Shown piece after piece: positions 12,308 through 33,026 of a stretch of DNA of 64,000 nucleotides (within the stretch, counting starts at the first letter, position 1; every line of letters starts with the position of its first letter). Made by a program: the position numbers and the translations under genes. Source of the DNA: Ktedonobacterales bacterium (GTDB lineage: Bacteria; Chloroflexota; Ktedonobacteria; Ktedonobacterales; DATBGS01); NCBI GenBank assembly GCA_036557285.1, contig DATBHW010000033.1, forward strand, positions 1 to 64,000, given 5' to 3'. The notes beneath the pieces were generated by a model. That model saw only the letters and a list, made by a program, of their open reading frames with translations. It was not told the DNA's origin and did no database searches.

Positions 12308-13171
12308 TTAAAGCTCACTCATGTTGTAAAAGCCCTTGCCGTTCTTCTTGCCATAGCGCCCGGCCAGCACCATCCGCTTGAGCAGCGGCGGTGGCGCGTA
12401 GATCGCGTCCTTGAACTCATCGTAGATGGCCTGGGCCGCGTAGAGCGTGGTATCCAGCCCCACGTAATCGAGCAGCTCAAACGGCCCCATTGGATAGCCG
12501 CAGCCCAGCTTCATACTGGTATCAATGTCCTCCATCGTCGCAAAGCCCTGCTCATACATGCGCACCGCCGCCAGCATGTAAGGAATCAGCAGAAAGTTGA
12601 CGATGAAACCCGCGCGATCTTTGGCAACCACAGGCGTCTTGCCCAGCGAGCGAGCAAAGCCTTTCAGCATCTCAACCGTCTCTTCGCTGGTGGCAATCGT
12701 GCGCACCACTTCTACCAGCTTCATCACCGGCGCGGGATTAAAGAAGTGCAGGCCCGCAATCTTATCCTGGCGATTGGTCACAGCCGCCATCTCCGTGATC
12801 GTCAGTGAAGAGGTATTCGTAGCAATGATGGCTTCGGGCCGCAAGAGGCGATCAAGCTGGGGGAAGAGCTTGCGCTTCTCATCCATATTCTCGATAATCG
12901 CCTCGATCACCAGATCACAGTCGCGGAAATCTTCCAAGCTCAGCGTTCCGCGCAGGCGATCCCGCGCCTCCTGCGCCTGTCCCTCGCTCAACTTCTGCTT
13001 ATCCACCAGCATACTCCATGCGCCATGAATGCGCGCCAGCCCTTTATCGAGCAGTTGCTGATTTACCTCATGCACCAGCGTCATGTAGCCCGACTGGGCA
13101 CAGGTCTGGGCAATGCCGCTGCCCATCAAACCGCATCCCACGACCCCGACACGTTTAATCTCTATCGCCAT
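12308..13171 (-). CDS. hbd: 3-hydroxybutyryl-CoA dehydrogenase-type enzyme
   Basis: A 287-residue NAD(P)-dependent 3-hydroxyacyl-CoA dehydrogenase. The N-terminal Rossmann fold begins VGVVGCGLMGSGIAQ. The catalytic region reads AGLHFFNPAPVMKLVEVV, with the family histidine, and the C-terminal dimerisation domain contains LGCGYPMGPFELLDYVGLDT. Length matches bacterial Hbd/PaaH-type enzymes. The start at 13171 has AAGGAG 9 bases upstream; a start at 13180 would sit directly on that site. It overlaps the end of the HIT gene by 17 bases and is probably translated from the same message. It would oxidise 3-hydroxyacyl-CoA in fatty-acid or aromatic-acid catabolism, or work in reverse for polymer synthesis. 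Confidence 0.9.
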   Translation of the reverse strand: MAIEIKRVGVVGCGLMGSGIAQTCAQSGYMTLVHEVNQQLLDKGLARIHGAWSMLVDKQKLSEGQAQEARDRLRGTLSLEDFRDCDLVIEAIIENMDEKRKLFPQLDRLLRPEAIIATNTSSLTITEMAAVTNRQDKIAGLHFFNPAPVMKLVEVVRTIATSEETVEMLKGFARSLGKTPVVAKDRAGFIVNFLLIPYMLAAVRMYEQGFATMEDIDTSMKLGCGYPMGPFELLDYVGLDTTLYAAQAIYDEFKDAIYAPPPLLKRMVLAGRYGKKNGKGFYNMSEL

Positions 13172-13859
13172 CGTCGCCATCTCCTTCGTGCTGCGCCCTT
13201 GCCGTTTGGCCGGGTCGGCTTTCATCAGTATTGTATTCCTGGGCAAACTCCCGCCACTTCTGAAGCAGCGACTCAATCTTGGGCCGCCCATTGACCCGCC
13301 GTTCATCAGACGGACGCCAGGCGTCCTGTGTCGCTGTTGCCTCTTTGCGCAGCGCCCCCAGGAACGAGAAATAGCGTACCTCTTCGGGTAGAAAAAGCTG
13401 ACCTTCTCCCACTCGTTGCTCAAAATAGAAATACTGGCCCTGCTGCGCGTGCCACTCGCGTAGATCCTCCTGGTTGGGAGCAGGATGGGGATGATATGCA
13501 GAGAGATCAAGTTGAATTGGCCCAAAGGGAAAACAATGCAGGTGCGCGTGATAAACCGTCTGACGAAAGATGCCATGCTCAAAAAAAACTGGCGGGCGAT
13601 ACGTCTGGCTCAAAAACTCGGCAACCCTGGCCTTCATCCACAAAAACTCCTCCTCCAGTTCCGGGATCAACGCGCCATAACAGCTATAATGCTCCTTCGG
13701 GACCAGCAGGATATGTCCCTCGATCAAGGGCGCGTGATCGGCAAGCAGAAAGAACGATTGGCTCTCAGTCAGGATATTATGGAGGTCTTGACGGACACAA
13801 AACGCACAATCTTCGCGGGGACGCGGTGCATCAAGCGCGGGTTGTTGCTCCAAACCCAT
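13155..13859 (-). CDS. HIT-family hydrolase-like protein
   Basis: A 234-residue protein with a histidine-triad domain. It starts with a CxxC-like metal site (DCAFCVRQD), continues through ADHAPLIEGHILLVPKEH, and has the histidine triad YHAHLHCF at about residue 100. The C-terminal 100 residues are extra compared with simple HIT proteins of about 110-140 residues, and the last part is hydrophilic. HIT proteins hydrolyse or transfer nucleotidyl groups; the substrate is unknown. The gene overlaps and precedes the dehydrogenase gene. Confidence 0.82.
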   Translation of the reverse strand: MGLEQQPALDAPRPREDCAFCVRQDLHNILTESQSFFLLADHAPLIEGHILLVPKEHYSCYGALIPELEEEFLWMKARVAEFLSQTYRPPVFFEHGIFRQTVYHAHLHCFPFGPIQLDLSAYHPHPAPNQEDLREWHAQQGQYFYFEQRVGEGQLFLPEEVRYFSFLGALRKEATATQDAWRPSDERRVNGRPKIESLLQKWREFAQEYNTDESRPGQTARAQHEGDGDDGDRD

Positions 13860-14032
13860 GAATTGGTTCCTCGAAACGTGGCCTCTGCCCGCGCCTACCT
13901 GGATACATGGTTGCGCGGAACGCAGGGAGATTTCCGCTATCTCTTGTTAGTATACAAGGGGAAGCCGCATCAGTGCAACCGCCAGCGGAGTTGCACTGAA
14001 GCTGCCGGTGAAACAGCAAGGCAGGCGGCATC

Positions 14033-14061
14033 TTGACACCCATATCACAATAGCGTATTAT
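14033..14061 (+). promoter_or_regulatory. Strong promoter of the tRNA-Gln/glmU unit
   Basis: TTGACA at 14033-14038 and TATTAT at 14056-14061 are spaced by 17 bases. The start would be near 14068, 29 bases before the tRNA. A 9-bp inverted repeat (CAGTGCAAC at 13971-13979 and its complement at 13990-13998) lies just upstream and could be an operator or a terminator. Confidence 0.8.
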
Positions 14062-14096
14062 ACATGAGAGCCAGCCACCGTGACTCATCAACCTAT

Positions 14097-14167
14097 TGGG
14101 GCGTGGCCAAGCGGTAAGGCAGCGGACTTTGGATCCGCGATCCCAGGTTCGAATCCTGGCGCCCCAG
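14097..14167 (+). tRNA. tRNA-Gln (anticodon UUG)
   Basis: A full cloverleaf of 71 bases. The acceptor stem is TGGGGCG with CGCCCCA, followed by discriminator G. The anticodon stem is GCGGA/TCCGC with loop CTTTGGA, giving anticodon TTG. The T-arm is CCAGG-TTCGAAT-CCTGG. CCA is not encoded. There is no terminator before glmU, so tRNA and mRNA are probably made as one transcript. Confidence 0.95.
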
Positions 14168-14216
14168 CCCCTACAGATTTTTCCTGGGCTATTTCCTGAG
14201 AGGCGCAACTGCGATC

Positions 14217-15686
14217 ATGAGAGGATTTGCTGCACTGGTGCTGGCAGCCGGGAAAGGGACGCGAATGCGATCCCGGTTGCCCAAAGTGCTTCACCCCCTG
14301 GCCGGTCGCCCGCTTCTGGAGCATACGCTGACCGCTATAGAGGGATTGGCGACCAATTCTGAAACCTCTGCGCCCGGCGAAGCGTCAGATGACCCTCCGC
14401 CAATAGTAGTGGTTGTCAGTCAGGATGCTGACTCCATTCGCAGCGCCTTTGCTGGCCGCTGCCTCTTTGCCACCCAGAGCGCCCAACTTGGCACCGCCGA
14501 CGCCGTACTGGCCGCACAACCAACGCTCTCCTCGCTCTCGCCATCGCCTGCGTATACGCTGATTCTGCCAGGCGACGCGCCGCTGCTGACCACAAAAATG
14601 CTGCGGTCATTGCTCGAAGCTTTTCGCCAGAGCGACAGCCCGCTCGCCCTTGTCAGCGCCCAGGCTCCAGACCCAACCGGCTACGGGCGCGTGGTCCGCG
14701 ATGAGCGCGGGCGTATCTGTGCGGTTGTTGAGGAGAAGGACACCAGCGATTGGCAGCGCGCGATTACGGAAGTGAATACCTCGCACTATTGCATCAGGAC
14801 CGACTGGCTCTGGGAACATCTGCCGCACGTCCAGCGTAACGCCATCAGCGGCGAGTACTATCTCGTCGATCTGGTCGAGATGGCAGCGAAGCAAGGCTAT
14901 ACCATCCCCACCGTCAGCGCGCCGCTGGATGAGGTGATGGGCGTCAATGATCGGGTACAGCTTGCCCAGGCAGAAAGCTTGGTGCGCCGCCGCATCCTGG
15001 AGCGGCTGATGCTGAGCGGTGTCACCATTATCGATCCCGCCAGCACGTTTATTGCCGCCAGTGTCAAGATCGGCCAGGATACTGTCATCCACCCCTTCAC
15101 GACGATCAGCGGCAGCGCCACCATTGGCAGCGAGTGCGTCATTGGCCCGCACAGCGTCATCAGAGACAGCCAGATTGGTAATCAGTGTGAGATCGTTGGT
15201 TCCTGGCTGGAAGAGGCAACTCTGGAAGCAAACGTCCATGTTGGGCCGATGAGTCACCTCCGGCCAGGGGCGCATCTCGCCACCAATGTACATCTGGGGA
15301 ATTACGCCGAGGTCAAAAAGTCTTTTATCGGCGCGGGTACGCAGATGCACCATTTCAGCTATATGGGCGATGCGACCGTTGGGGAAAACGTCAACATCGG
15401 CGCAGGGGCGATCACTTGCAATTATGACGGCACGCCGATTAAGAAGAAAACCTTGATTGAAGATGGCGCCTCCGTCGGCAGCGATACCTTGTTTATCGCT
15501 CCCGTCACTATGGGACAAGGCGCCACAACGGGCGCGGGCGCTGTCGTCAACCATGATGTCGCGCCAGGCACGCTCGTGGTTGGCATGCCTGCCCGCCCGA
15601 TTCGTCGTGTACACACGAAGCAGGAAGGAGAATCAACGCCGCCGACTCCGCCCGACGCGCCAGCGCGTGGAGAGGGAGAGGAGTAA
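14217..15686 (+). CDS. glmU: Bifunctional GlmU, UDP-GlcNAc synthesis
   Basis: A 489-residue enzyme that acetylates glucosamine-1-phosphate and then couples it to UTP, making UDP-GlcNAc for peptidoglycan. The uridyltransferase half starts with LVLAAGKGTRMRSRLPKVLHPL, and LGTADAV is near residue 95. The C-terminal half is a left-handed beta-helix of hexapeptide repeats (IGSECVIGPHSVI). The acetyltransferase site is HFSYMGDATVGENVNIGAG, followed by the CNYDG loop. The last 30 residues are a hydrophilic tail. The start ATG is 50 bases after the tRNA. Ten bases separate its stop from the CNNM/CorC gene. Confidence 0.95.
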   Translation: MRGFAALVLAAGKGTRMRSRLPKVLHPLAGRPLLEHTLTAIEGLATNSETSAPGEASDDPPPIVVVVSQDADSIRSAFAGRCLFATQSAQLGTADAVLAAQPTLSSLSPSPAYTLILPGDAPLLTTKMLRSLLEAFRQSDSPLALVSAQAPDPTGYGRVVRDERGRICAVVEEKDTSDWQRAITEVNTSHYCIRTDWLWEHLPHVQRNAISGEYYLVDLVEMAAKQGYTIPTVSAPLDEVMGVNDRVQLAQAESLVRRRILERLMLSGVTIIDPASTFIAASVKIGQDTVIHPFTTISGSATIGSECVIGPHSVIRDSQIGNQCEIVGSWLEEATLEANVHVGPMSHLRPGAHLATNVHLGNYAEVKKSFIGAGTQMHHFSYMGDATVGENVNIGAGAITCNYDGTPIKKKTLIEDGASVGSDTLFIAPVTMGQGATTGAGAVVNHDVAPGTLVVGMPARPIRRVHTKQEGESTPPTPPDAPARGEGEE

Positions 15687-15695
15687 GCGATCTCT

Positions 15696-17207
15696 ATGGA
15701 TAGTAGTGGTTCATCTAGTCCGTTAGCACTTCTTTTTACTGTCTACAGCGCCCTGAGCGCCCATCACAGTCTGGCGCCCCTTGCGTCATTGGCCGCTTCC
15801 TCCCAGGATACCAGCGCAGCCATTTCCGGGTTTACTGCCGCCGAATGGTTCCAGCTTTTGGGGATCATCATCGCGCTGATCCTATCGGCCTGTTCATCAG
15901 CCGCCGAAACGGCGCTTACCTCGGTCAGCCGCATCAAAATCAAAAATATGGTGGCAGAGGGAGATATGACGGCCCAGAGGATTGAGCGGCTGCTGGCCGA
16001 ACCCAACAAGTTCCTCACCACCATTCTGGTAGTAAACAACGTGGCGGTAATCGTGGCCGCGACGCTGGCAACGCTCCTGGCCCTCAGACTCTCCGCAAGC
16101 TGGGGGGAACTGCTCTCCACCCTCCTGATCGCGCTAATAGTGCTGATCTTCTGCGAGATTGCCCCCAAGACAGCCGCCATCCAGAACCCGGAGCGCTGGG
16201 CGCGGGTTCTGGTGAATCCTGTGCGCGGCGCGGCCTGGTTTCTATCTCCGGTCATCAGGTTTCTTGGCGCAATCACCTCGTCTCTGGTGCGCCTCTTTGG
16301 TGGGCGCGTCCGCCGACGTGGCCCCTTCGTCACCGAAGAAGAATTGCGCATGCTGGTGGCGGTGGGTGAAGAGGAAGGGGTTATCGAAGAAGAAGAGCGG
16401 GAGATGATTCACAGTATCTTCGAGTTAGGTGATCGCCCGGTGCGGGAAATCATGATACCGCGCATTGATATGGTCACGCTGGAGAGCGAAGACACGCTGG
16501 ATGAGGCCGCCACACTTATCATGCAGGGTGGGCAATCGCGCATTCCGGTCTATGAAGATACCATTGATAATCTTATCGGTGTCCTCTACGCCAAAGACCT
16601 CCTACGCCACTTGCGTCAGGGCAACACCCAGGCAAAGGTACGCGATTTTGTGCGTCCGGCCTACTTTGTCCCTGAATCCAAGAAACTGGATGATCTGCTG
16701 CACGAGCTTCAGCATCAGCGCGTCCATATGGCGATTGTCGTTGATGAATATGGGTCCGTCGCCGGCCTTGTGACCATTGAAGACCTTGTAGAAGAGATTA
16801 TTGGCGACATTCAGGACGAGTACGATAAAGAAGAGATTCTCTACGAGAGAATTGGTGATAACGAATATATCATTGATGCTAAGATCAGCATTGATGATTT
16901 CAATGAGGTTCTCGATACAAGGCTCACGGATGAAGATTACGATACACTGGGCGGCTTTGTCTATGCTCAACTGGATAAAGTACCCAGCGTAGGCGATGAG
17001 GTCTCATACCGAAACCTCGCCATGACGGTCCTTTCAACCAGGGGAAGACGTATCACCAAAGTGAAAGTCATCCGCCACGTAGAGGACCATCATCAGGCAG
17101 GCGAGGATGAGGCCGCAGCGCCGCCGCAGCACACAAACAACGGCACACCTCCCAACAACCGCAGTCACGCCGAGCGCGCCAGCACAGGCCACCAGCTAAG
17201 CGAATGA
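15696..17207 (+). CDS. CNNM/CorC-type transporter-like membrane protein
   Basis: A 503-residue protein of the hemolysin C / CNNM family. An N-terminal leader with hydrophobic residues is followed by a DUF21 membrane domain at about 45-195 with three or four helices (FQLLGIIIALILSACSSAAETALTS). A CBS-domain pair lies at about 230-350 (VREIMIPRIDMVTLE and AIVVDEYGSVAGLVTIEDLVEEIIG), and a CorC_HlyC domain at about 370-455. The final 50 residues are disordered. The family is linked to magnesium/cobalt export or regulation, and the CBS pair probably binds adenine nucleotide. GAGGAG lies upstream of the start. It follows glmU in the same unit. Confidence 0.9.
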   Translation: MDSSGSSSPLALLFTVYSALSAHHSLAPLASLAASSQDTSAAISGFTAAEWFQLLGIIIALILSACSSAAETALTSVSRIKIKNMVAEGDMTAQRIERLLAEPNKFLTTILVVNNVAVIVAATLATLLALRLSASWGELLSTLLIALIVLIFCEIAPKTAAIQNPERWARVLVNPVRGAAWFLSPVIRFLGAITSSLVRLFGGRVRRRGPFVTEEELRMLVAVGEEEGVIEEEEREMIHSIFELGDRPVREIMIPRIDMVTLESEDTLDEAATLIMQGGQSRIPVYEDTIDNLIGVLYAKDLLRHLRQGNTQAKVRDFVRPAYFVPESKKLDDLLHELQHQRVHMAIVVDEYGSVAGLVTIEDLVEEIIGDIQDEYDKEEILYERIGDNEYIIDAKISIDDFNEVLDTRLTDEDYDTLGGFVYAQLDKVPSVGDEVSYRNLAMTVLSTRGRRITKVKVIRHVEDHHQAGEDEAAAPPQHTNNGTPPNNRSHAERASTGHQLSE

Positions 17208-23741: not shown

Positions 23742-26144
23742 TTATTCGCGGATGCGTCGCGCAGGCAGCGGACGCACCAGTGGCTCTGGCCCCAGTGGCC
23801 CATCCTCCGGCTTGCGTGGCACACGCTCGCGCACCAGATAGTTGGGCGCATTTGCCAGATCATCCATATGCAGGTTGACGCCTGGCCCAAAGCGGTTGTA
23901 GAAGGACAACTCGAAGTTCGGCGTCTCGCCCAGCGCGCCGTGTGGGCAGACCTCCACGCAGTCGCCACAGAAGATACAGCGGTCCAGCGCGAAATCGTAC
24001 TTCACCAGCTCGCGCTCTGCCATCATCAGCGATCCAGTGGGACAGACCTGCACACACGCGCCGCAGGAGACGCAATCGGTATCGTGCAGCGAGACATTGA
24101 ACGGCGTCGAAACAATCGTATCGAAGCCCTTGCCGAACATGCCATAGCAGTTGGGGCCAATCACATCATGACAGACGCGCACACATTGCGTGCAGTTGAT
24201 GCACTTGTTGGGATCGCGCAAGATGAAGCTGTGCGAGACATCCACTTCATAGTCATGATAATCATTCGCTTCGCCATCATGGAAGCGGTTATCTGTCAGG
24301 CCATATTCGATGCTGAACTTTTGCAGATCGCACTGCCCAGCGGCAGGGCAGGCGCATTGCAAGCAGCGCGCTGATTCGCGCTGCGCCTGCTCTTGAAGAT
24401 AGCCCGACTCGATTAGTCGGAAGTTGCGCTTGCGCTCCTCATAAGGCAGCATCGGCATTTTGACCTGGGGTTCAACCGGCTTGTAAGGCACAATATCGAA
24501 CAGATCAGGGGCGCGCTCTTCCGTCTCGATGCGCCGTGAAACCTCGGCCATATCCTCGCCGCGCAAATAGGCGTCCATAGAACGCGCCGCCAGCTTCCCT
24601 TGCGCCACACACTCGATTACGGTTGAAGCGCCGATCACCGCATCGCCGCCCGCAAAAACGCCTTTACGCCCCGTCATGAAGTGATAAGGATCGGTTTCAA
24701 TCGTCCGACGCCTGGTGATGGCAATGCCCGGCTCATGCTCCAGCACCTCCGTTTCCAGCGCCTGGCCGATGGCCGGAATGATCGTATCGCACTCGATAAT
24801 AAACTCCGAGCCAGGAATCGGTATCGGGCGTTGGCGGCCTTTCTCATCAGGCTCACCCATCTTATTGCGCACAAACTCGATGCCTGCCACCCGGCCATCT
24901 TTCTCGATGATGCGCTTCTGGCTCCCCATGAAGATCATATCGGTGCCTTCGTTCTCGCCATCCTCGCGCTCTTCCGGGGTTGCGCCAATCTCTTTGATAG
25001 AGCGGCGATAGACGGTATGCACCTTTGCGCCCAGGCGCAGCGATGTACGCGTGCAGTCGAAGGCGGTAAAGCCGCCGCCAATCACCACTACTTCTTTTGT
25101 CTCATCCACCGGCACCGGCAGACCCAGCGTCTTCTCGCGCAGATAGGTGATGGCGTTCACAAAGCCCGGCAGATCCTCGCCCTCCAGGCCAAGCTCGTTA
25201 CTCGTCCAGACGCCAATACCTAGATAGACCGCTTCATAGCCCTGAGCAAACAGATCATCAACGGTGAAGTCTTCGCCCAGCTTCACATTCCCCTGGAACT
25301 CGACACCCAGCCGCCAGACGCTCTCCAGTTCTTTATCCATCATATTCTTTTCGAGCCGGTACTCCGGGATGCCATATCGCAGCATGCCGCCCGGCTGAGG
25401 CATCATATCGAAGACCTTGACCGAATGGCCCTTGAGCGCCAGATAGTACGCGCAGGTCAGACCTGCCGGGCCAGCGCCTACCACCGCGATACGCCTGCCG
25501 GTGGGGGCTTCCGTCGGCCAGGGGGTGGGCGGGTCTTCGATCACTTCCTCCGCCGCAAAGCCGTGCATGCGGCAGATGGCGATCTCTTCTTCTACCAGGC
25601 CACGCCGACAGACATCCTGGCAGGGATGCGGGCAGACCAGGCCCAGGATATAGGGGAAGGGCAGCACCTCTGTCACCAGACGAGCCGCCTCGCGGTTTTC
25701 GCCTCTGGCAATCAATTCGAGATAGCCAGGGATGTCAATATGTGTTGGGCAGCCAATCTGGCACGGCGGCTGGCAGTAGGCGTTGTGATCGGAGAGCATC
25801 ATCTCCAGATTGGTGCGCCGGATATGTACCAGCTTATCTGAGCGTGTCCTGACGACCATGCCAGGAGCCGCCGGGGTATTACACGAAGGCAGCGGGCGCT
25901 CGGCATCATCAATTTCGACGAGGCACATGCGGCACGCCGAAGTTGGCTCCAGCTTCTCATCATCACAGAGCGTCGGAATATCGAGAATGCCATTTTCAAC
26001 GGCCACGCTCAGGATCGTTTGCCCTTCATAGGCGCGCACGTTTTTGCCGTCGATGGTGAGCGTAAACGTCGGCTGGCCCACTTCGTTGCGCTCGAAGGGC
26101 TGCGCCTGAGCAGAAGAGTTATTATTGCGAATCTGAATAGCCAT
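23742..26144 (-). CDS. NuoG/GltD-like multi-cluster flavoprotein
   Basis: An 800-residue electron-transfer protein. Residues about 25-100 form a plant-type [2Fe-2S] domain with Cys60, 71, 74 and 88. A GltD-type N-terminal Fe-S helix domain follows (YCQPPCQIGCPTHIDIPGYL). Two Rossmann parts then bind FAD (IAVVGAGPAGLTCAYYLALKG) and NAD(P) (VVVIGGGFTAFDCTRTSLRLG). A ferredoxin-like tail carries several Cys motifs (CINCTQCVRVC, CVSCGACVQVCP, CIFCGDCVEVCP). This is not true NuoG: the molybdopterin-like domain is replaced by a glutamate-synthase-small-subunit-like flavoprotein. It is last in the set and likely shuttles electrons between NAD(P)H, ferredoxin and the NuoF-like partner. Confidence 0.87.
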   Translation of the reverse strand: MAIQIRNNNSSAQAQPFERNEVGQPTFTLTIDGKNVRAYEGQTILSVAVENGILDIPTLCDDEKLEPTSACRMCLVEIDDAERPLPSCNTPAAPGMVVRTRSDKLVHIRRTNLEMMLSDHNAYCQPPCQIGCPTHIDIPGYLELIARGENREAARLVTEVLPFPYILGLVCPHPCQDVCRRGLVEEEIAICRMHGFAAEEVIEDPPTPWPTEAPTGRRIAVVGAGPAGLTCAYYLALKGHSVKVFDMMPQPGGMLRYGIPEYRLEKNMMDKELESVWRLGVEFQGNVKLGEDFTVDDLFAQGYEAVYLGIGVWTSNELGLEGEDLPGFVNAITYLREKTLGLPVPVDETKEVVVIGGGFTAFDCTRTSLRLGAKVHTVYRRSIKEIGATPEEREDGENEGTDMIFMGSQKRIIEKDGRVAGIEFVRNKMGEPDEKGRQRPIPIPGSEFIIECDTIIPAIGQALETEVLEHEPGIAITRRRTIETDPYHFMTGRKGVFAGGDAVIGASTVIECVAQGKLAARSMDAYLRGEDMAEVSRRIETEERAPDLFDIVPYKPVEPQVKMPMLPYEERKRNFRLIESGYLQEQAQRESARCLQCACPAAGQCDLQKFSIEYGLTDNRFHDGEANDYHDYEVDVSHSFILRDPNKCINCTQCVRVCHDVIGPNCYGMFGKGFDTIVSTPFNVSLHDTDCVSCGACVQVCPTGSLMMAERELVKYDFALDRCIFCGDCVEVCPHGALGETPNFELSFYNRFGPGVNLHMDDLANAPNYLVRERVPRKPEDGPLGPEPLVRPLPARRIRE

Positions 26145-26196: not shown

Positions 26197-27519
26197 TTAT
26201 AGGACATGCTTTTTGACAAACCGATGGATGCGCAGCGGCGTACAGACGCCGGTCGGGCAGCGATGCTCCTCGATATGCGCCCGGAAATCATCGCCAAAAT
26301 AGCGCATCGCCGTCACCACGGCATTGGGCGCGTGAACGCCAAAGCCGCAGAGTGAGCCATCGGGTACATAGCGCGCAAACTCTTCCAGCAGCGCCAGGTC
26401 ATCTGTCGTCCCAAGGTCACTGATGACCCCTTCCAGCGTGCCGGTAATGCGCTTCATGCCCAGTCGGCAGGGGACGCATTTCCCACACGATTCACCAGCC
26501 AGATATTTGCTGCGCTCTCGCGCCCAGGCAACCATACAGGTATTCACTGACAAGAGTTCGAGAGTCCCCGAACCAATAATGGCGCCTACCTGCTCCACGT
26601 CCTCAAAATCGAGCGGCGTATCGAAAAGGCTCGCTGACAAGACGCCTCCTTCGGGGCCACCCACCGCCACGCCGCGCGCCACGCGCTCATTCAGGGCAAT
26701 GCCCACATGACGCAGCGCCTGGCGCACCGTCGTACCCAGCGGCATCTCAATCAAACGCCCCTCTGTGTCTGGCTCTGGCCCATACACCGTGAAGAGCTTC
26801 GTGCCTGGACTTTGCCGTGTCCCCAGGCGACGATATTCATCCGCGCCGCGCTGAAGAATCAGCGGCACATTGATCAGCGTCTCCAGATTATTGATAACCG
26901 TTGGCTTATCCCAAAGGCCAAAGACAGCGGGATACGGCGGGCGCTGCTGCGGCATCGCGCGCTTGCCCTTGATGATTTCCATCAGAGTCGTTTCTTCGCC
27001 GCCCATAAAGCCAACATCAACCGCCACGAGCGTGATCGAGCAGGTAAAGTCGCTGCCCAGGATGTCGCGGCCAAGCGTGCGCCCCTCCAGGGCTTCGCGT
27101 AACGCTTCCTGCACCGCAGCAATCCCCTGGGTGTAGCCGCTGCGCGTGAAGAGGTATGCTTCCTGAGCGCCCACTGCGTAGGCGGCCAGCGCGATACCCT
27201 CAATCACCTGATGCGGATTTTGTTCAAGCAGCGTGCGGCTGATGCGTGAAGAAGGATCAGCGTCGTAGGCATTACAAATGACGTATTTCGGCTCCTCGAC
27301 CTCGTCATGAGCGATGAGCCATTTGTCAGCCACCGGCACGCCCGCGCCGCCGCGCCCGCGCAGCCCACTTGCCCTGATCTGCTCAATGACCTGATCGGGA
27401 GATAACTGCTGAAGAGCGCGCTCCAGCGCCTGATACCCTCCAGCGCGGCGATATTCTTCGAGCGTGCGCACAGCAGGCGGGCCTGGTTGGCGCAGCAGGT
27501 GATACTCTAGCTCAGGCAC
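26197..27519 (-). CDS. NuoF-like NADH-binding flavoprotein
   Basis: A 440-residue homolog of NuoF, the NADH/FMN subunit of complex I and of bifurcating hydrogenases and formate dehydrogenases. It has the FMN/NADH glycine loop SGLRGRGGAGVPVADKW, the segment NAYDADPSSRISRTLLEQNP, and the N3 [4Fe-4S] site ESCGKCVPCRLG with a later Cys in SLCGFGVH. The start is GTG at 27519, with AGGAGG 7 bases upstream, overlapping the previous gene by 8 bases. Length equals that of ordinary NuoF. NuoE normally delivers electrons beside it; here only a partial NuoE is found. Confidence 0.88.
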   Translation of the reverse strand: MPELEYHLLRQPGPPAVRTLEEYRRAGGYQALERALQQLSPDQVIEQIRASGLRGRGGAGVPVADKWLIAHDEVEEPKYVICNAYDADPSSRISRTLLEQNPHQVIEGIALAAYAVGAQEAYLFTRSGYTQGIAAVQEALREALEGRTLGRDILGSDFTCSITLVAVDVGFMGGEETTLMEIIKGKRAMPQQRPPYPAVFGLWDKPTVINNLETLINVPLILQRGADEYRRLGTRQSPGTKLFTVYGPEPDTEGRLIEMPLGTTVRQALRHVGIALNERVARGVAVGGPEGGVLSASLFDTPLDFEDVEQVGAIIGSGTLELLSVNTCMVAWARERSKYLAGESCGKCVPCRLGMKRITGTLEGVISDLGTTDDLALLEEFARYVPDGSLCGFGVHAPNAVVTAMRYFGDDFRAHIEEHRCPTGVCTPLRIHRFVKKHVL

Positions 27520-28195
27520 TTGGTCCCCTCCTATGGTTAATCTCCGCGTATTTCCCGCGAGTTGCCGCCGAGGGGCCATATTCCATCTGGTCATTGCGGC
27601 GAACACCCTTCGCCAGAGGAGCTGGCTTGAACTTTGGACTCATTGTCGCAATGCCAAAAATATCGCTCAAATCCACGCCGCGCACCTGAACAATGCGCTG
27701 GGCCGCCGCCAGCGGCAGGTAGCCATACGCATCGATCACCAGATCAATGATGCCGCCAAGATCGTAAGCTTCCAAAGAAGATTGGTCGAGAATCTTATCC
27801 ACTTTTGCAAGATCGGTCTCTGGCTCTAATTCTGGTTTGGTTGGCATTGCCACCACCGGCGGCACCGGCTTGTGCGGATAATCAACGGCATATTCGGAGA
27901 TACGCGGCGTATAGTAGCCAGCAATAGATGTTGGCGAGAAGTAAGGCCGATGGCGAAAACGATGGGTTGGCCGATATTCAATGGTAATGGCGCGTGGCGG
28001 GCAGGCTTTCTCGCAGAGCAGGCACGCTTCGCATCTCAGGTTATAAGGCGTATCCTGGCCCGCTTCTTGAATCAGTTCGATCAGCCCTCGGCTCCGCTCA
28101 GGCAGCTTCCGCTTCTCATAAGGGTAGAGCCGCGTCACTTTTGGCCGGAATAAATGGCTGAGCGTCAAGCCCAGCCCGGTAAAGACTCCGCGCAT
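27512..28195 (-). CDS. NuoI-like ferredoxin fused to a partial NuoE domain
   Basis: A 227-residue protein. The N-terminal part begins like NuoI (HLFRPKVTRLYPYEKRKLPERSRG) but has only one [4Fe-4S] motif, with Cys55, 58, 61 and 65 (CEACLLCEKAC), where NuoI has two. After a linker, residues about 130-190 match the helical N-terminal part of NuoE (IIDLVIDAYGYLPLAAAQRIVQV). The following thioredoxin-like [2Fe-2S] domain is absent; the tail is short and basic. This looks like a purposeful fusion because the frame is intact and overlaps nuoF. It might carry electrons between the NuoB-like and NuoF-like subunits. Confidence 0.78.
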   Translation of the reverse strand: MRGVFTGLGLTLSHLFRPKVTRLYPYEKRKLPERSRGLIELIQEAGQDTPYNLRCEACLLCEKACPPRAITIEYRPTHRFRHRPYFSPTSIAGYYTPRISEYAVDYPHKPVPPVVAMPTKPELEPETDLAKVDKILDQSSLEAYDLGGIIDLVIDAYGYLPLAAAQRIVQVRGVDLSDIFGIATMSPKFKPAPLAKGVRRNDQMEYGPSAATRGKYAEINHRRGPSA

Positions 28196-28207: not shown

Positions 28208-28774
28208 CTATTCTTCACCCTTGAGTTTGAGTCCCTGTTTTTCGATCTTCTCGCGCAGTTTCAGGATGCCCTCGACCAGCGCTTCTGGCCGGGGTGGACA
28301 GCCAGGAACATAGATGTCAACCGGCACAATGGTATCCACACCCTGAACGGTATAGTAGGAGTCATAAAACTCGCCGCCAGAGTTGGCGCACTGGCCCATG
28401 CTGAGTACCCACTTGGGATCAGGCATCTGCTCCCACAGGCGTTTAAGGCGCGGCCCCATTTTGTTCGAGACAGTACCCGCCACGATCATCAGATCGGCCT
28501 GACGCGGGCTGGAGCGAAAGACCTCTGAGCCGAAACGCGACAGATCATAATGCGCCTGGGCTGCCGCCATCATCTCGATAGCGCAGCAGGCCAGGCCATA
28601 GCCCAGCGGCCAGATCGAGCGCGAACGCGCCCAGTTCTGCGCCCACGTAATCATTTCGCGCAGGCTGGTAATGGCTACTGGCAATTCCTGATCGCCAGGG
28701 ACATATTCAGCCGGTCCCCTGGCTTGCATGATAGGCAGTGGTTGCCCCTTACGGGATTTGATGTCAGTGCTCAT
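28208..28774 (-). CDS. NuoB-like [4Fe-4S] subunit
   Basis: A 188-residue NuoB homolog. It has the four ligands of cluster N2: Cys63 and Cys64 ([11 protein letters not shown]), Cys129 ([10 protein letters not shown]) and Cys159 ([15 protein letters not shown]). In complex I this subunit passes electrons to quinone together with NuoD, but no NuoC or NuoD gene is in this set. The ATG at 28774 has GAGGAGG 12 bases upstream; an ATG at 28798 exists but would overlap that site. It is the first gene after the promoter at 28852-28860. Related NuoB-like subunits also occur in hydrogenase and formate-hydrogenlyase-type complexes. Confidence 0.88.
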
Positions 28775-29099: not shown

Positions 29100-29519
29100 A
29101 TGACGGAATCACGCTTCGATATTGGCATGCAGACGCGCAAGGAGGTACTTGGAAGCGAGTACGTCGAGCGAGCGCAGGCGCGCATGACCGAGTTTGACGC
29201 CGACTTTCAGCGTTTCATCACGGAGTCGGCCTGGGGGTCTGTCTGGGCGCGCCCGGACCTGGACCGAAGGACAAGAAGCCTGGTCACGATTGCGATTCTG
29301 GCGGCGCTGGGTCGTGACGAACTGGTAGTCCATCTGCGCGGCAGCCAGAATATCGGGGTTGATCCGCGCGAAATCGCGGAGGTACTCCTCCATGTAGCCG
29401 TCTACGCTGGGGTACCAGCGGCCAACGCCGCGTTCTCGCTGGCGAAGAAAGAATTAGACCAGCGCGCCCGCGCCGCAGAAGAGGAAGATGCGCCGCAAGC
29501 ACGTCAGGAGGATGTATGA
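29100..29519 (+). CDS. pcaC: 4-carboxymuconolactone decarboxylase
   Basis: A 139-residue CMD-family protein that decarboxylates gamma-carboxymuconolactone to beta-ketoadipate enol-lactone. Typical parts are the start (RFDIGMQTRKEVLGSEYVER), WARPDLDRRTRSLVTIAIL and the HLRGSQNIGVDPREIAEVLLH helix with its conserved glutamate and histidine. The C-terminal tail is rich in Glu, Gln and Ala. GGAAGGG precedes the ATG. It is first in a pcaC-H-G-B-D set and overlaps pcaH by 4 bases. The protein is normally free-standing in proteobacteria and fused to PcaD as PcaL in many actinobacteria. Confidence 0.93.
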   Translation: MTESRFDIGMQTRKEVLGSEYVERAQARMTEFDADFQRFITESAWGSVWARPDLDRRTRSLVTIAILAALGRDELVVHLRGSQNIGVDPREIAEVLLHVAVYAGVPAANAAFSLAKKELDQRARAAEEEDAPQARQEDV

Positions 29520-30256
29520 ACCAGATCACGATTGGCGACATCGTTCGGGGAGATCAGGAGATTTTCCCGCCCTACCTGTATGAAGCCTATCAGTCCACGC
29601 GGCGTCGGGCGCCGATGCTTGCGCTCATAGATGTGCCTCTGACGCTTTCGGAGTTGACTGGCCCTGGACCCACCATCAGCGTCGTGACAGCGGAAGATGC
29701 CGACCTCACGAGGAACGCCGGAACTGGCGGCGAGGCTATAGGGCAGCGCATCATTATGACCGGGCGCGTCCTTGACCATCATGGGAATCCCGTACCGAAC
29801 ACGCTTCTGGAGATCTGGCAGGCCAATGCTGCTGGCCGTTACCTTCACAAACGCGATCAATGGCCGGGGCCGCTCGATCCAAACTTCCTGGGCATGGGGC
29901 GCTGTTTGACCAATGACGCGGGCGTCTATCGGTTCCTGACGATCCGCCCAGGCGCGTACCCCTGGAAGAACCACCCCAACGCCTGGCGTCCTGCCCACAT
30001 TCATTTCTCGCTGTTCGGCCCATCCATCCTGTCGCGCCTGGTGACGCAGATGTACTTCCCCGACGATCCGCTTCACGCCCTCGATCCCATCCTGAACGCT
30101 GTACCAACGGAAGCCGCGCGCCAACGCCTGATCGCTGCTTACGACCATACCGTCACCGAGCCAGAATGGGCGCTTGGGTATCGCTGGGATATTGTCCTGC
30201 GCGGGCCAGACGCCACCCCATTCGAGTCTTCGCCATCAGGAGAGACAAGACGATGA
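29516..30256 (+). CDS. pcaH: Protocatechuate 3,4-dioxygenase beta subunit
   Basis: A 246-residue intradiol dioxygenase subunit that holds the catalytic Fe(III) and opens protocatechuate to 3-carboxy-cis,cis-muconate. It has the RPPMLAL-like entry (RRAPMLALIDVP), the family core GNPVPNTLLEIWQANAAGRY, and the iron ligand region with Tyr in YPWKN and His-x-His in RPAHIHF. Length is normal. It overlaps pcaC at its start and pcaG at its end (ATGA), which suggests coupled translation to keep the subunits equal. Confidence 0.95.
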   Translation: MNQITIGDIVRGDQEIFPPYLYEAYQSTRRRAPMLALIDVPLTLSELTGPGPTISVVTAEDADLTRNAGTGGEAIGQRIIMTGRVLDHHGNPVPNTLLEIWQANAAGRYLHKRDQWPGPLDPNFLGMGRCLTNDAGVYRFLTIRPGAYPWKNHPNAWRPAHIHFSLFGPSILSRLVTQMYFPDDPLHALDPILNAVPTEAARQRLIAAYDHTVTEPEWALGYRWDIVLRGPDATPFESSPSGETRR

Positions 30257-30831
30257 GTACTATCCCCTTGACCACCTCGCAGACGGTGGGTCCATTCTTC
30301 TCACCTGCGCTCTTACGCGAAGACGCCCGACGCCACGTTCTGACCCGGCCTGAAACAGTTGGCGAGCGCATTCGTATCGAGGGGCATGTCCTTGACGGCG
30401 ACGGAGCGCCCGTACCCGACGCGCTGGTCGAAATCTGGCAAGCGAATGCCTATGGTCGCTATCACCATGCGGCAGACGTAGGGCCAGCGAAGCTCGATCC
30501 GTCCTTTCAGGGGTTTGGCCGCTCCGGCACAGACGAAGACGGCAGCTATTGGTTCGAGACTGTCAAGCCAGGGCCGGTCCTCTTCAATGGACATCAGCAG
30601 GCTCCGCACATCTGCGTCACCCTCTTTGCTCGTGGCCTGCTCAACCACCTGATGACCCGCCTGTACTTTGAGGATGAACCAGCGAATGTAGGCGACCCGG
30701 TATTGCTTTGCGTCCCCGAAGAGCGTCGGGCGACGCTGCTGGCACGTCGCGAGCAGAATGGCGCAGCGACCATCTACCATTTTGACATTATCATGCAAGG
30801 CACGAACGAAACTGCATTTTTCAATCTCTGA
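30253..30831 (+). CDS. pcaG: Protocatechuate 3,4-dioxygenase alpha subunit
   Basis: A 192-residue partner of PcaH. It begins LTTSQTVGPFF, carries DGAPVPDALVEIWQANAYGRY, and has APHICVTLFARGLL where the second iron histidine of the beta subunit is replaced, as expected for the non-metal alpha subunit. The ATG overlaps the pcaH stop, and AGGAGA lies upstream. Together they form the (alpha-beta-Fe)n enzyme. Confidence 0.95.
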   Translation: MSTIPLTTSQTVGPFFSPALLREDARRHVLTRPETVGERIRIEGHVLDGDGAPVPDALVEIWQANAYGRYHHAADVGPAKLDPSFQGFGRSGTDEDGSYWFETVKPGPVLFNGHQQAPHICVTLFARGLLNHLMTRLYFEDEPANVGDPVLLCVPEERRATLLARREQNGAATIYHFDIIMQGTNETAFFNL

Positions 30832-30885
30832 TGCGCACCCTTCACACCAGGATGGAGCAGGCTCACCTTCGAAAGGCAATGCCCC

Positions 30886-32244
30886 ATGTCCGAGCCAATA
30901 GACCTGTTATTGTTTAGCACACCGGCCATGTCTGCCGCCTTCTCTTCTGCGGCGCACCTGCGGGGAATGCTCGCATTTGAGGCTGCGCTCGCTCGCGCGG
31001 AGGCTCGCGCGGGCGTCATTCCCCAGGAGGCGGCAATAGTCATCGCGGCCACCTGCAAAGAGGATCGGTTCGATGTCGGGGCGCTGTATCGCGAGGCAGC
31101 GCGGGCTGGCACACCAGCCATTCCCCTGGTACGCATGCTCACAGCCTGTATCGAAGGCGCCGCGCAGAAGTTCGTCCATTGGGGCGCAACGAGCCAGGAC
31201 GTGATTGACACCGCGCTCATGCTTCAGATGCGAGACGGGCTTGATCTGCTCGTGGAAGGGCTGCTCGGCGTATGCTCAGCCTGCGCCACGCTCGCCGAGC
31301 AGCGCCGCCACACGCTGATGGCCGGGCGAACGCTGCTCCAGCAAGCAATACCCATCACCTTTGGCCTCAAGGCGGCGCGATGGCTGGCCCTGGCAGCGCG
31401 CCAGGTACAGGCGCTGCGTGAGCATCGGCGCTCTACACTGGCCGTACAGCTAGGGGGGGCCGCAGGGACACTTGCCGCCTTGGGGAATCATGGACCCAGG
31501 GTGGTAGAACTCCTTGCCGAAGAACTGGGCCTTCCAGCCCCGGACCTCCCCTGGCATACCGAGCGTGACCGCATCGCCGCAATTGCCGCAACGCTTGGCG
31601 TGATTGCCGGGGCAATGGCGAAGATAGCTGGCGATATAACCCTTCTCGCGCAAACCGAGGTCGGCGAAGCCTCGGAGGGCGCCATCCCTGGAAAGGGCGT
31701 CTCATCCGCTATGCCGCAGAAACACAATCCGGTTGATGCGACTGGCGCGCTCGCGTCGGCGCGCCTGGCGGTGGGAGTGGTGCCGGTGATCTTGTCCGCG
31801 ATGGCCCAGGAACACGAACGCGCCGCAGGAGGATGGCAGGCGGAATGGGCTGCTATCCCTGATCTATTCCGCTTCACCGCTGGCGCAGTCGAGCGGGTTC
31901 GGGATGCGTTGAGCGGCCTCCTGATTGATGCAGAGCGTATGCAGGCGAACCTCGACCTGGCTGGGGGACTGATTATGGCCGAGCCGCTGACGATGGCGCT
32001 CGCTTCACACCTGGGCAGACCAGAGGCTCAGCGTCTTGTTAAAGAAGCCTGTGAGCAGGCTGTGAGATCAGGTGCGAGCCTGCGGCAAGCGGCTCTGGCG
32101 GAGCCACAGATTCGGGCCATCCTTCCCCCTGAAGCGATTGATCGGGCGCTCGACCCCACCATGTATCTGGGCAGCGCGGACGTATTTATCAACCGCGCCC
32201 TCGAATCCTACCGTAAGATGCTCTCTGAGCGAGGTAATATATGA
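30886..32244 (+). CDS. pcaB: 3-carboxy-cis,cis-muconate cycloisomerase
   Basis: A 452-residue fumarase/aspartase-superfamily enzyme that cyclises carboxymuconate to the gamma-lactone. The signature loop is GKGVSSAMPQKHNPVDATGA, a form of the GSSxMPxKxNP motif. The WGATSQDVIDTALMLQ segment is also typical of adenylosuccinate-lyase-like members. It lies 54 bases after pcaG and overlaps pcaD by 4 bases. Length matches bacterial PcaB. Confidence 0.94.
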   Translation: MSEPIDLLLFSTPAMSAAFSSAAHLRGMLAFEAALARAEARAGVIPQEAAIVIAATCKEDRFDVGALYREAARAGTPAIPLVRMLTACIEGAAQKFVHWGATSQDVIDTALMLQMRDGLDLLVEGLLGVCSACATLAEQRRHTLMAGRTLLQQAIPITFGLKAARWLALAARQVQALREHRRSTLAVQLGGAAGTLAALGNHGPRVVELLAEELGLPAPDLPWHTERDRIAAIAATLGVIAGAMAKIAGDITLLAQTEVGEASEGAIPGKGVSSAMPQKHNPVDATGALASARLAVGVVPVILSAMAQEHERAAGGWQAEWAAIPDLFRFTAGAVERVRDALSGLLIDAERMQANLDLAGGLIMAEPLTMALASHLGRPEAQRLVKEACEQAVRSGASLRQAALAEPQIRAILPPEAIDRALDPTMYLGSADVFINRALESYRKMLSERGNI

Positions 32245-33026
32245 ACTCCTTTGTCGCCAACGGGGTACGCCTCGCGTACCGCATTGACGGGCCAGACGAT
32301 GCCCCGGCGCTCGTGATGCTCAACTCACTTGGGACCGATCTGCGCATGTGGAACCCCCAGGCAGCGATGCTCAGCCGCAACCTGCGCATCATTCGCTACG
32401 ACTGCCGGGGTCACGGCGCTTCCGATGCGCCTGCGGGGCCATATACTATCGAGCAGTTTGGACTCGATCTCCTCACGCTTCTGGACACATTACAGATTGA
32501 GCGGGCGCATCTCTGCGGTCTTTCGCTCGGTGGTCTGATCGCCTTGTGGTTCGCGGCGCATTATCCGGGGCGAGTTGCTCGCGCGGTCTTCGCCAACACC
32601 GCCGCGCGGATCGGCACAGTGGAAGGTTGGAATACACGCATCGCTCAGGTAAGCGAGGGAGGCATGGGCGCTGTACGGGACATGGTTCTCGCGCGCTTTC
32701 TCAGTGAGCAATTCCGCCAGCAGCACCCTGAGATAGTGCAACAGTTCAGCGAGACGCTCGATGCGATAGACCCCCAGGGATACAAGGGAGCCTGCGCAGC
32801 CCTCCGCGAAGCAGACCTGCGAGAAAAGCTGGCCGCCGTCCGCGCCCCATCACTCATCATCGCTGGCGAACTAGACGAGGCCACGCCACCATCGCAAGCG
32901 CGAGAACTTCACGCGGCCATCGCGGGAAGTGAACTCTCGATTCTCCGCGAGGCCGCGCACCTGTCGAACGTGGAACAGCCCGAAGCATTCAGCAAAGCGG
33001 TCAGCGCCTTTCTTGTTCACTCTTGA
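32241..33026 (+). CDS. pcaD: 3-oxoadipate enol-lactonase
   Basis: A 261-residue alpha/beta hydrolase that opens beta-ketoadipate enol-lactone. It has the HGxG-like region (DCRGHGASDAP), the nucleophile elbow LCGLSLGGLIALW, the acid region GELDEATPPSQAREL and the final histidine in REAAHLSNVEQPEAF. The ATG overlaps the pcaB stop. It completes the path from protocatechuate to beta-ketoadipate within five genes. The following CoA transfer and thiolase steps (pcaIJ, pcaF) are not here. Confidence 0.94.
   Translation: MNSFVANGVRLAYRIDGPDDAPALVMLNSLGTDLRMWNPQAAMLSRNLRIIRYDCRGHGASDAPAGPYTIEQFGLDLLTLLDTLQIERAHLCGLSLGGLIALWFAAHYPGRVARAVFANTAARIGTVEGWNTRIAQVSEGGMGAVRDMVLARFLSEQFRQQHPEIVQQFSETLDAIDPQGYKGACAALREADLREKLAAVRAPSLIIAGELDEATPPSQARELHAAIAGSELSILREAAHLSNVEQPEAFSKAVSAFLVHS

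Follow-up and report, generated by a model that had tools for sequence, protein, structure and literature searches.

A conserved NuoI-NuoE fusion in Ktedonobacterales and a probable second complex I with a split NuoI subunit

Respiratory complex I (Nuo/NDH-1) consists of 14 subunits, and its module for reduced nicotinamide adenine dinucleotide (NADH), NuoEFG, is replaceable, as seen in the 11-subunit complex I that lacks these three proteins. According to the published descriptions, StnABC (Sporomusa-type Nfn, Nfn-Bfu; PDB 8oh5/8oh9) is a soluble, bifurcating enzyme reported in Firmicutes, Proteobacteria and Synergistetes, with a similar enzyme, Nso, in Thermococcus (PMC10482914, PMC7483475). 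In a hybrid called Nuo-Bfu, whose occurrence in Deferribacteres, Proteobacteria, Planctomycetes and Nitrospirae was predicted in 2022 (PMC9304861), complex I carries an intact bifurcating BfuABC module in place of NuoEFG. Here we describe a related gene set of a Ktedonobacterales bacterium (Chloroflexota; GenBank assembly GCA_036557285.1), found in the first 64,000 nucleotides of contig DATBHW010000033.1, read on the forward strand and hereafter called the window. Its central element is a 227-residue fusion subunit (27512-28195, minus strand), in which the N-terminal half of NuoI is followed by the helical N-terminus of NuoE. We found that the fusion is a real, conserved gene; sequence comparison places the other half of NuoI on a NuoG-like subunit encoded two genes downstream, and NuoB, the fusion, NuoF and the NuoG-like protein probably belong to a second, complete complex I whose genes are spread over three loci in the source genome.

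The fusion gene sits between the genes for NuoB (28208-28774; 188 residues, nuoB_fam E 1e-69, all four cysteine ligands of cluster N2 present) and NuoF (26197-27519), with the NuoG-like gene (23742-26144) following, all on the minus strand. It overlaps by 8 bases with NuoF, whose GTG at 27519 precedes the end of the fusion frame (stop codon 27512-27514); other upstream NuoF starts are possible. Residues 7-79 match positions 1-68 of the 121-position NuoI model TIGR01971 (48.9 bits, E 4e-13), and this N-half (residues 1-77, 27965-28195, minus strand) holds the membrane-docking N-terminus and the first four-cysteine motif. NuoI has two C-x2-C-x2-C-x3-C motifs in one chain, whereas the fusion has one, and its cysteines C55, C58, C61 and C65 are invariant in all 16 aligned sequences. 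Residues 126-198 (27602-27820, minus strand) form a NuoE-type helical docking domain: they match residues 17-89 of StnA (8oh5_A, E 7e-5), and a profile of the 16 fusions finds 9bov_C (E 1.5e-8), HydC 8a6t_C (4e-7) and StnA (7e-6) with its NuoE part. The match ends before the thioredoxin-like [2Fe-2S] domain, which is absent from the fusion, and a short basic tail stands in its place, with G197, R200, D202, G207, R213, I219, H221 and R223 invariant among the 16 sequences. Alignment to both families thus agrees with the first-pass annotation of the window, which had described a NuoI-like domain with a single motif, a helical NuoE N-terminus without its cluster domain, and a basic tail.

The same annotation had argued from the intact frame and the 8-base overlap with NuoF that the gene is not decaying, and the order as a whole supports it. 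Among 47 genomes of the order searched, the source genome included, 46 contain the fusion and 44 have it full-length in a single frame; carriers include Dictyobacter arantiisoli, D. aurantiacus, D. vulcani and D. kobayashii. The exceptions are a genome that is 58% complete, with only a NuoI-type match of 73 residues in a 300-residue frame (G028), one in which the fusion is read as two overlapping frames (G005), and one with a frame of 213 residues (G029). The 15 other aligned fusions are 63-68% identical to that of the source genome. Because the fusion is conserved in this way, chance is excluded as its origin. A complete NuoE gene at this position in close relatives, which would have marked the present copy as a deletion, was not found; the order genomes share the truncated form. 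Across 45 fusion loci, some of which are the same contig entered twice, NuoF adjoins the fusion at all 45 and NuoB does so at 43. The NuoG-like gene is seen at 26 loci; at the 19 others the sequence stops in NuoF itself or no more than about 230 bases from it. Both loci without an adjoining NuoB (L043, L044) belong to one genus, in which a NuoB 81-82% identical to that of the window lies on another contig (G027:C112, G031:C92). In the 15 named loci together with the window, no neighbour beyond the four genes is constant, and the next commonest gene occurs in 9 of the 16. Two genomes of the order possess two copies of the fusion gene (G008, contigs C23 and C36; G024, contigs C569 and C620).

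The NuoG-like, or StnC-like, subunit has 800 residues. It begins as NuoG does, with an N1b-like [2Fe-2S] domain (25839-26069, minus strand; Fer2_4 E 1e-20; ligands in 30 of 31 rows), continues with a GltD/NfnB-type domain containing iron-sulfur sites and Rossmann folds for flavin adenine dinucleotide (FAD) and NADP(H) (24555-25781, minus strand; Fer4_20, Pyr_redox_2), and then returns to NuoG-like motifs for N5-, N4- and N7-like clusters; the eight cysteines of the N4/N7-type double motif (24027-24212, minus strand) are kept in 30 of 31 rows. Among solved structures the subunit is closest to 9bov_A, to StnC (8oh5_C) of the Sporomusa StnABC transhydrogenase and to NfnA (9n5u_A) of an NfnABC; the GltD-type domain aligns to all three, and the alignment to StnC extends over residues 28-730 (E 5e-162). 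Beyond the double motif lies an extra four-cysteine motif followed by NuoI-type PNFELS sequence (23829-24014, minus strand), which reads ...CIFCGDCVEVCPHGALGETPNFELS.... TIGR01971 is the best match of both NuoI pieces, at positions 1-62 for the N-half of the fusion (50.9 bits) and at 72-111 for the C-half on the NuoG-like chain (41.7 bits), and when the two pieces are joined a single alignment covers positions 1-111 at 95.7 bits. Joining the N-half to the N7 motif as a control gave 74.0 bits, so part of the gain from joining comes from any ferredoxin-like motif. When compared with solved structures, the C-half retrieved the second motifs of NuoI/NdhI; the top rank was a polyferredoxin matched by many weak repeats. 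The four cysteines of the C-half are present in 29 of 31 rows, and the two failures (L100, L107) break frame near their ends. By these comparisons the second NuoI motif is not lost, and NuoI is split over the fusion and the NuoG-like subunit. Each cluster of a two-cluster ferredoxin is held by three cysteines of one motif and one cysteine of the other; clusters N6a and N6b are therefore predicted to be ligated across the two chains.

The residues expected of an NADPH-binding electron entry are largely retained in the NuoG-like family. The six cysteines of the GltD-type domain and His194 are found in 31 of 31 rows, as is Arg263, which corresponds to StnC R239 when mapped by hand; in the Tyr-Arg-Arg motif for NADP(H), the Tyr and the second Arg are present in 31 of 31 rows and the first Arg in 26 of 31. 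The protein differs from StnC in that His194 replaces the ligand K170 in all 31 rows (position likewise mapped by hand) and in that the FdhF-like C-terminal domain is absent, the chain ending at residue 800 after the NuoI half. Four Dictyobacter loci (L036, L037, L038 and L047, at about 12700-16700) have one or more extra tandem NuoG-like copies, and YYR replaces YRR in the second copies of these four loci and in the single copy of L041.

The source genome (G000) encodes a canonical complex I operon on contig C44, in which NuoA to NuoK were read directly and L, M and N were placed by family search. It also encodes a second NuoD on contig C7, with a second NuoH beside it in a stretch read as A-C-D-H (L112), an order read in two further genomes as well (G010 and G044; L114, L115), and a second J-K-L-M-N set on contig C5, likewise found in G036 (L117, L120). 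All seven order genomes tested have two strong NuoD, two NuoJ and six strong L/M/N-type genes, one of the six being in two pieces in G019. Together with the window, the C7 and C5 sets encode every subunit type from NuoA to NuoN, with NuoI in halves and NuoE reduced. The N2 cysteines are present in 22 of 22 split-type NuoB rows, and the quinone-site His and Tyr motifs in 21 of 21 split-type NuoD rows; the quinone end of the second complex looks functional. These data suggest that the four window genes probably belong with the C7 and C5 sets to one enzyme. Compared with respiratory complex I, this enzyme would have a split NuoI, a NuoE without its [2Fe-2S] domain, a NuoF with an altered loop for flavin mononucleotide (FMN) and NADH, and a StnC-like protein with an FAD/NADPH domain in place of NuoG.

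Whether the fusion occurs in other Chloroflexota, a check that the first-pass annotation had proposed, was addressed with the 16-fusion profile on 400 genomes of the phylum and, beyond that, with a scan of close relatives. Matches at E<=1e-8 were obtained in 139 of the 400 genomes, many of them only ordinary NuoI, and the fusion itself was recovered in families f12, f22, f31, f33, f34 and f45. Nineteen loci outside the order were read. In eleven the gene order is A-B-C-D-H-fusion-F-NuoG-like, in most cases with J and K coming next. Contig ends truncate two more (L102, L103). The last six, from f33 and f45, read B-D-fusion-F; five of these also show the NuoG-like gene, and the remaining locus is cut. 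The other A, C, H and J-N genes of G191 form a second cluster, and G114 is alike except that NuoA was not detected. In 18 of the 19 genomes, the only strong complex-I-type NuoD is that of the split-type complex itself, and in 12 of 19 the only NuoF match is the altered form. The split type thus appears to be the only complex I found in the assemblies, most of them drafts, of many lineages. G119 has two strong NuoD and a canonical operon besides the split type, and weaker additional NuoD-like matches occur in G343, G163 and G119. Both complexes are represented at the G119 loci L094, L122, L123 and L124, with much of both on one contig.

Subunit trees connect the scattered genes of the order with those of the other families. 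In the NuoD tree, the split-type rows, 21 in number, all fall into a single group (SH-aLRT support 84), and the second NuoD of the order groups with G119 and f33/f45 (support 99), as its second NuoH does with G119 and f33 (97). NuoB of the window type groups with f33/f45/G119 (91/98) in a tree rebuilt without two long-branch rows (G000C20, G119can) that had disturbed the first one.

The NADH end of the enzyme is altered in both of its subunits. NuoF (440 residues) finds its best PDB matches in 7t2r_B, 9bov_B and 8oh5_B and is nearest to the HydB/StnB/NfnB group; it covers only residues 111-529 of the 584-residue StnB and lacks the N-terminal [2Fe-2S] and C-terminal 2[4Fe-4S] domains of StnB/HydB. 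A bifurcating BfuBC core with all of its iron-sulfur clusters is consequently not present, since the NuoE cluster domain is absent as well, and a plain Stn-type bifurcating transhydrogenase was rejected because its defining clusters are missing from NuoF and NuoE. At 27235-27276 (minus strand), CNAYDADPSSRISR replaces the canonical CNADE-x-EPG-x-x-KDR loop of the FMN/NADH site, which begins CNAYDAD in the order. All 34 order rows have NAYDAD, with the window protein entered twice and frames shorter than 380 residues excluded; L018 has V for the first C. Glu95 is Asp, and Asp103 is missing, in all 34. All 18 split-type rows from other families have Y, M or F at position 94 and D at position 97, so that both positions are changed in 34/34 order and 18/18 other rows; Asp at position 97 occurs too in bifurcating HydB/StnB chains. 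The four N3 cysteines are complete in 34 of 34 order rows and in 7 of the 18 others, the second Cys being lost in the remaining 11. In a study of Aquifex NuoEF, Glu95 is described as strictly conserved, and E95, E97 and D103 as contacting NADH through water (PMC6560083). The NuoE-type part varies in length: fusions of f12, f22 and f31 have a longer one, which at most loci is full-length within a fusion of about 275 residues, and in which the second Cys pair, C-x3-C, is absent in 12 of 12, one of these cut short; the thioredoxin-like domain is absent from the order and from the seven f33, f34 and f45 fusions read, a distribution that fits one ancient loss in this second group. The N1a cluster of NuoE is reported to tune NAD+ release (PMC6560083, PMC5562879), and in StnABC removal of the StnA [2Fe-2S] cluster ends bifurcation and leaves the NADPH:viologen activity of StnC (PMC10482914). 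Taken together, the altered NuoF loop, the loss of the NuoE cluster, the kept GltD and NADP(H) residues and the StnC precedent favour NADPH as the electron donor and disfavour bifurcation.

We therefore propose, as the reading that we hold to be probable although by no means secure, that the fusion is a connecting subunit in the core of a second, complete complex I with a split NuoI, in which NADPH is the most likely point of entry and NuoEF serves as a scaffold. The NuoI N-half would dock on the membrane arm and supply one four-cysteine motif, and the NuoE-type helical domain would clamp NuoF; the two NuoI halves would rebuild the two-cluster N6a/N6b relay between the NuoG-like subunit and NuoB across the subunit interface. 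The GltD/NfnB-type domain would most likely take up electrons from NADPH at its FAD; these would pass through the iron-sulfur chain of the NuoG-like subunit and the split NuoI to cluster N2 of NuoB and on to quinone, driving the J-N membrane arm, and the reverse direction may also be possible; the NADH site of NuoF would be lost or remodelled. We infer assembly, substrate, direction, pumping and inter-chain cluster ligation from the sequences, in which the NuoI halves, the gene sets, their co-occurrence and the kept and lost ligands can be read directly.

Several observations weigh against this proposal. The genes of the order are scattered over several loci, and their joint expression is an assumption. 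The split-type rows as a whole do not form one clade in the NuoB and NuoH trees, and the NuoL tree is not congruent with those of B, D and H. AlphaFold structure predictions are poor, with a mean predicted local distance difference test score (pLDDT) of 51 for the fusion, in which the better part is helical (residues 129-185), and of 37 for the NuoG-like protein. A specificity for NADP(H), as opposed to NAD(H), is deduced from the similarity to StnC/NfnB and from the Tyr-Arg-Arg stretch with its variable first Arg. The NADH loop is not uniformly destroyed, Glu95 being kept in 5 of the 18 rows from other families and Asp103 in 7 of 18, and NuoF of the order, with its N3 ligands, glycine loop and strict NAYDAD, looks remodelled rather than dead.

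The strict conservation of NAYDAD leaves room for a remodelled site in NuoF, and the strongest competitor of our proposal builds on this: the same second complex I with the same split NuoI, in which NuoF takes electrons from NADH or another donor through a remodelled FMN site, and the GltD domain acts as a second port or a transhydrogenase branch. It can be argued that a site conserved in 34 of 34 rows is in use, and the GEE motif is kept in the order along with the glycine loop and all N3 ligands; the Glu95 and Asp103 retained in part of the other families point the same way. Against this stand the replacement, in every order row, of a Glu95 that is reported as strictly conserved in the canonical site (PMC6560083), the universal loss of Asp103 in the order, the Y, M or F at position 94 of every split-type row, the loss of the NuoE cluster domain or of its second Cys pair, and the broken N3 site in 11 of the 18 rows outside the order. 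We regard this remodelled entry as rather unlikely, though worth keeping in mind.

It is considerably less probable that the four window genes encode a Stn-like NAD(P)H oxidoreductase that is soluble, stands alone with NuoB as its outlet and does not depend on the C7 and C5 sets. No gene besides these four is a frequent neighbour at the named loci of the order, StnABC is soluble, and the closest solved relatives are StnC-like and StnB/HydB-like chains. Nevertheless, the membrane-docking N-terminus of the NuoI N-half and the motifs of NuoB are kept in their canonical form, other families have the same genes inside full complex I operons, and the second NuoD/H and J-N sets occur in 7 of 7 tested order genomes, with an ancestry of D and H that matches the window NuoB. 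The relocation of NuoB to another contig in two genomes shows that dispersal of partner genes is real, and the bifurcation domains of StnB are absent. A four-gene remnant docking on the NuoCD of the canonical complex was set aside once the second NuoA-C-D-H and J-N sets were found. The weakest alternative, decay or mis-assembly of the fusion gene, could appeal to the missing half of NuoI and the missing NuoE cluster domain, and is barely credible given full-length frames in 44 of 47 genomes, invariant motif cysteines in relatives 63-68% identical, and a NuoI half encoded two genes away.

Returning to the second complex I with a split NuoI that we favour, its resemblance to described systems is partial in each case. 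It shares all subunit types A-N, the N2 ligands and the NuoD quinone motifs with respiratory complex I, and the NuoG-like, NuoF and NuoE-type chains with StnABC, from which it differs by its link to complex I subunits as well as by the missing StnA and StnB cluster domains. With Nuo-Bfu it shares a Bfu-type module in place of NuoEFG; as published, Nuo-Bfu is of Type 3 with an intact NADH/ferredoxin BfuBC core (PMC9304861), whereas here the core is reduced and BfuA has the Type 1 NADPH domain. The 11-subunit complex I keeps a one-piece NuoI; in G053, of the same phylum, A-D and H-J, L-N genes were read, and E, F, G and a StnC-like gene were not seen in that stretch. In the main text of a 2025 survey of complex I variants, a term search found no word starting with Chloroflex, NADPH or glutamate synthase (PMC12361115), and two Chloroflexi genome papers mention ordinary Nuo annotation (PMC6776052, PMC3971608). 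Our literature search, with most subscription journals outside its reach, retrieved no report of this subunit combination or of a split NuoI. Hybrid complex I (Nuo-Bfu) and StnABC themselves are already published.

It is conceivable, and offered here tentatively as somewhat less than an even chance, that these genes represent a class of complex I not described before and widespread among Chloroflexota, in which NADPH instead of NADH would be connected to the quinone pool and the proton-motive force, with NuoI split and the N6 clusters ligated at a subunit interface, and which may run in reverse, from quinol to NADPH, where both enzymes occur. If so, complex I would not always be an NADH enzyme, its NADH head would be dispensable, and whole lineages would respire or make NADPH by means of a proton-pumping complex I. 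From the split NuoI it would follow that two chains can together restore the N6 relay, and the system would provide a natural test of the assembly of complex I from hydrogenase-like and NADPH-type modules. Genes annotated here as truncated nuoI/nuoE or as glutamate synthase small subunit are probably respiratory subunits, and such annotations warrant caution.

Additional genes of related kinds were observed in the order. Contig C20 of the source genome (5114-10469, L116) contains a third set of NuoH-, NuoB-, NuoL- and NuoD-like genes, which may encode an Ehr-type (hydrogenase-related) complex; its NuoD-like protein lacks the GPQHPSTHG motif, and a hydrogenase-type CxxC pair at its start was not seen by eye. 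A third full-length NuoH beyond the two complex I sets was found at G036:C1:8555944-8557005 and at G044:C1:9007011-9008060. In the window itself, open reading frames at 29100-33026 (plus strand), starting beside the complex I genes, resemble an aromatic-degradation cluster and were named by reading the frames alone: one carboxymuconolactone decarboxylase-like, two protocatechuate dioxygenase-like, one fumarase/cycloisomerase-like and one hydrolase.

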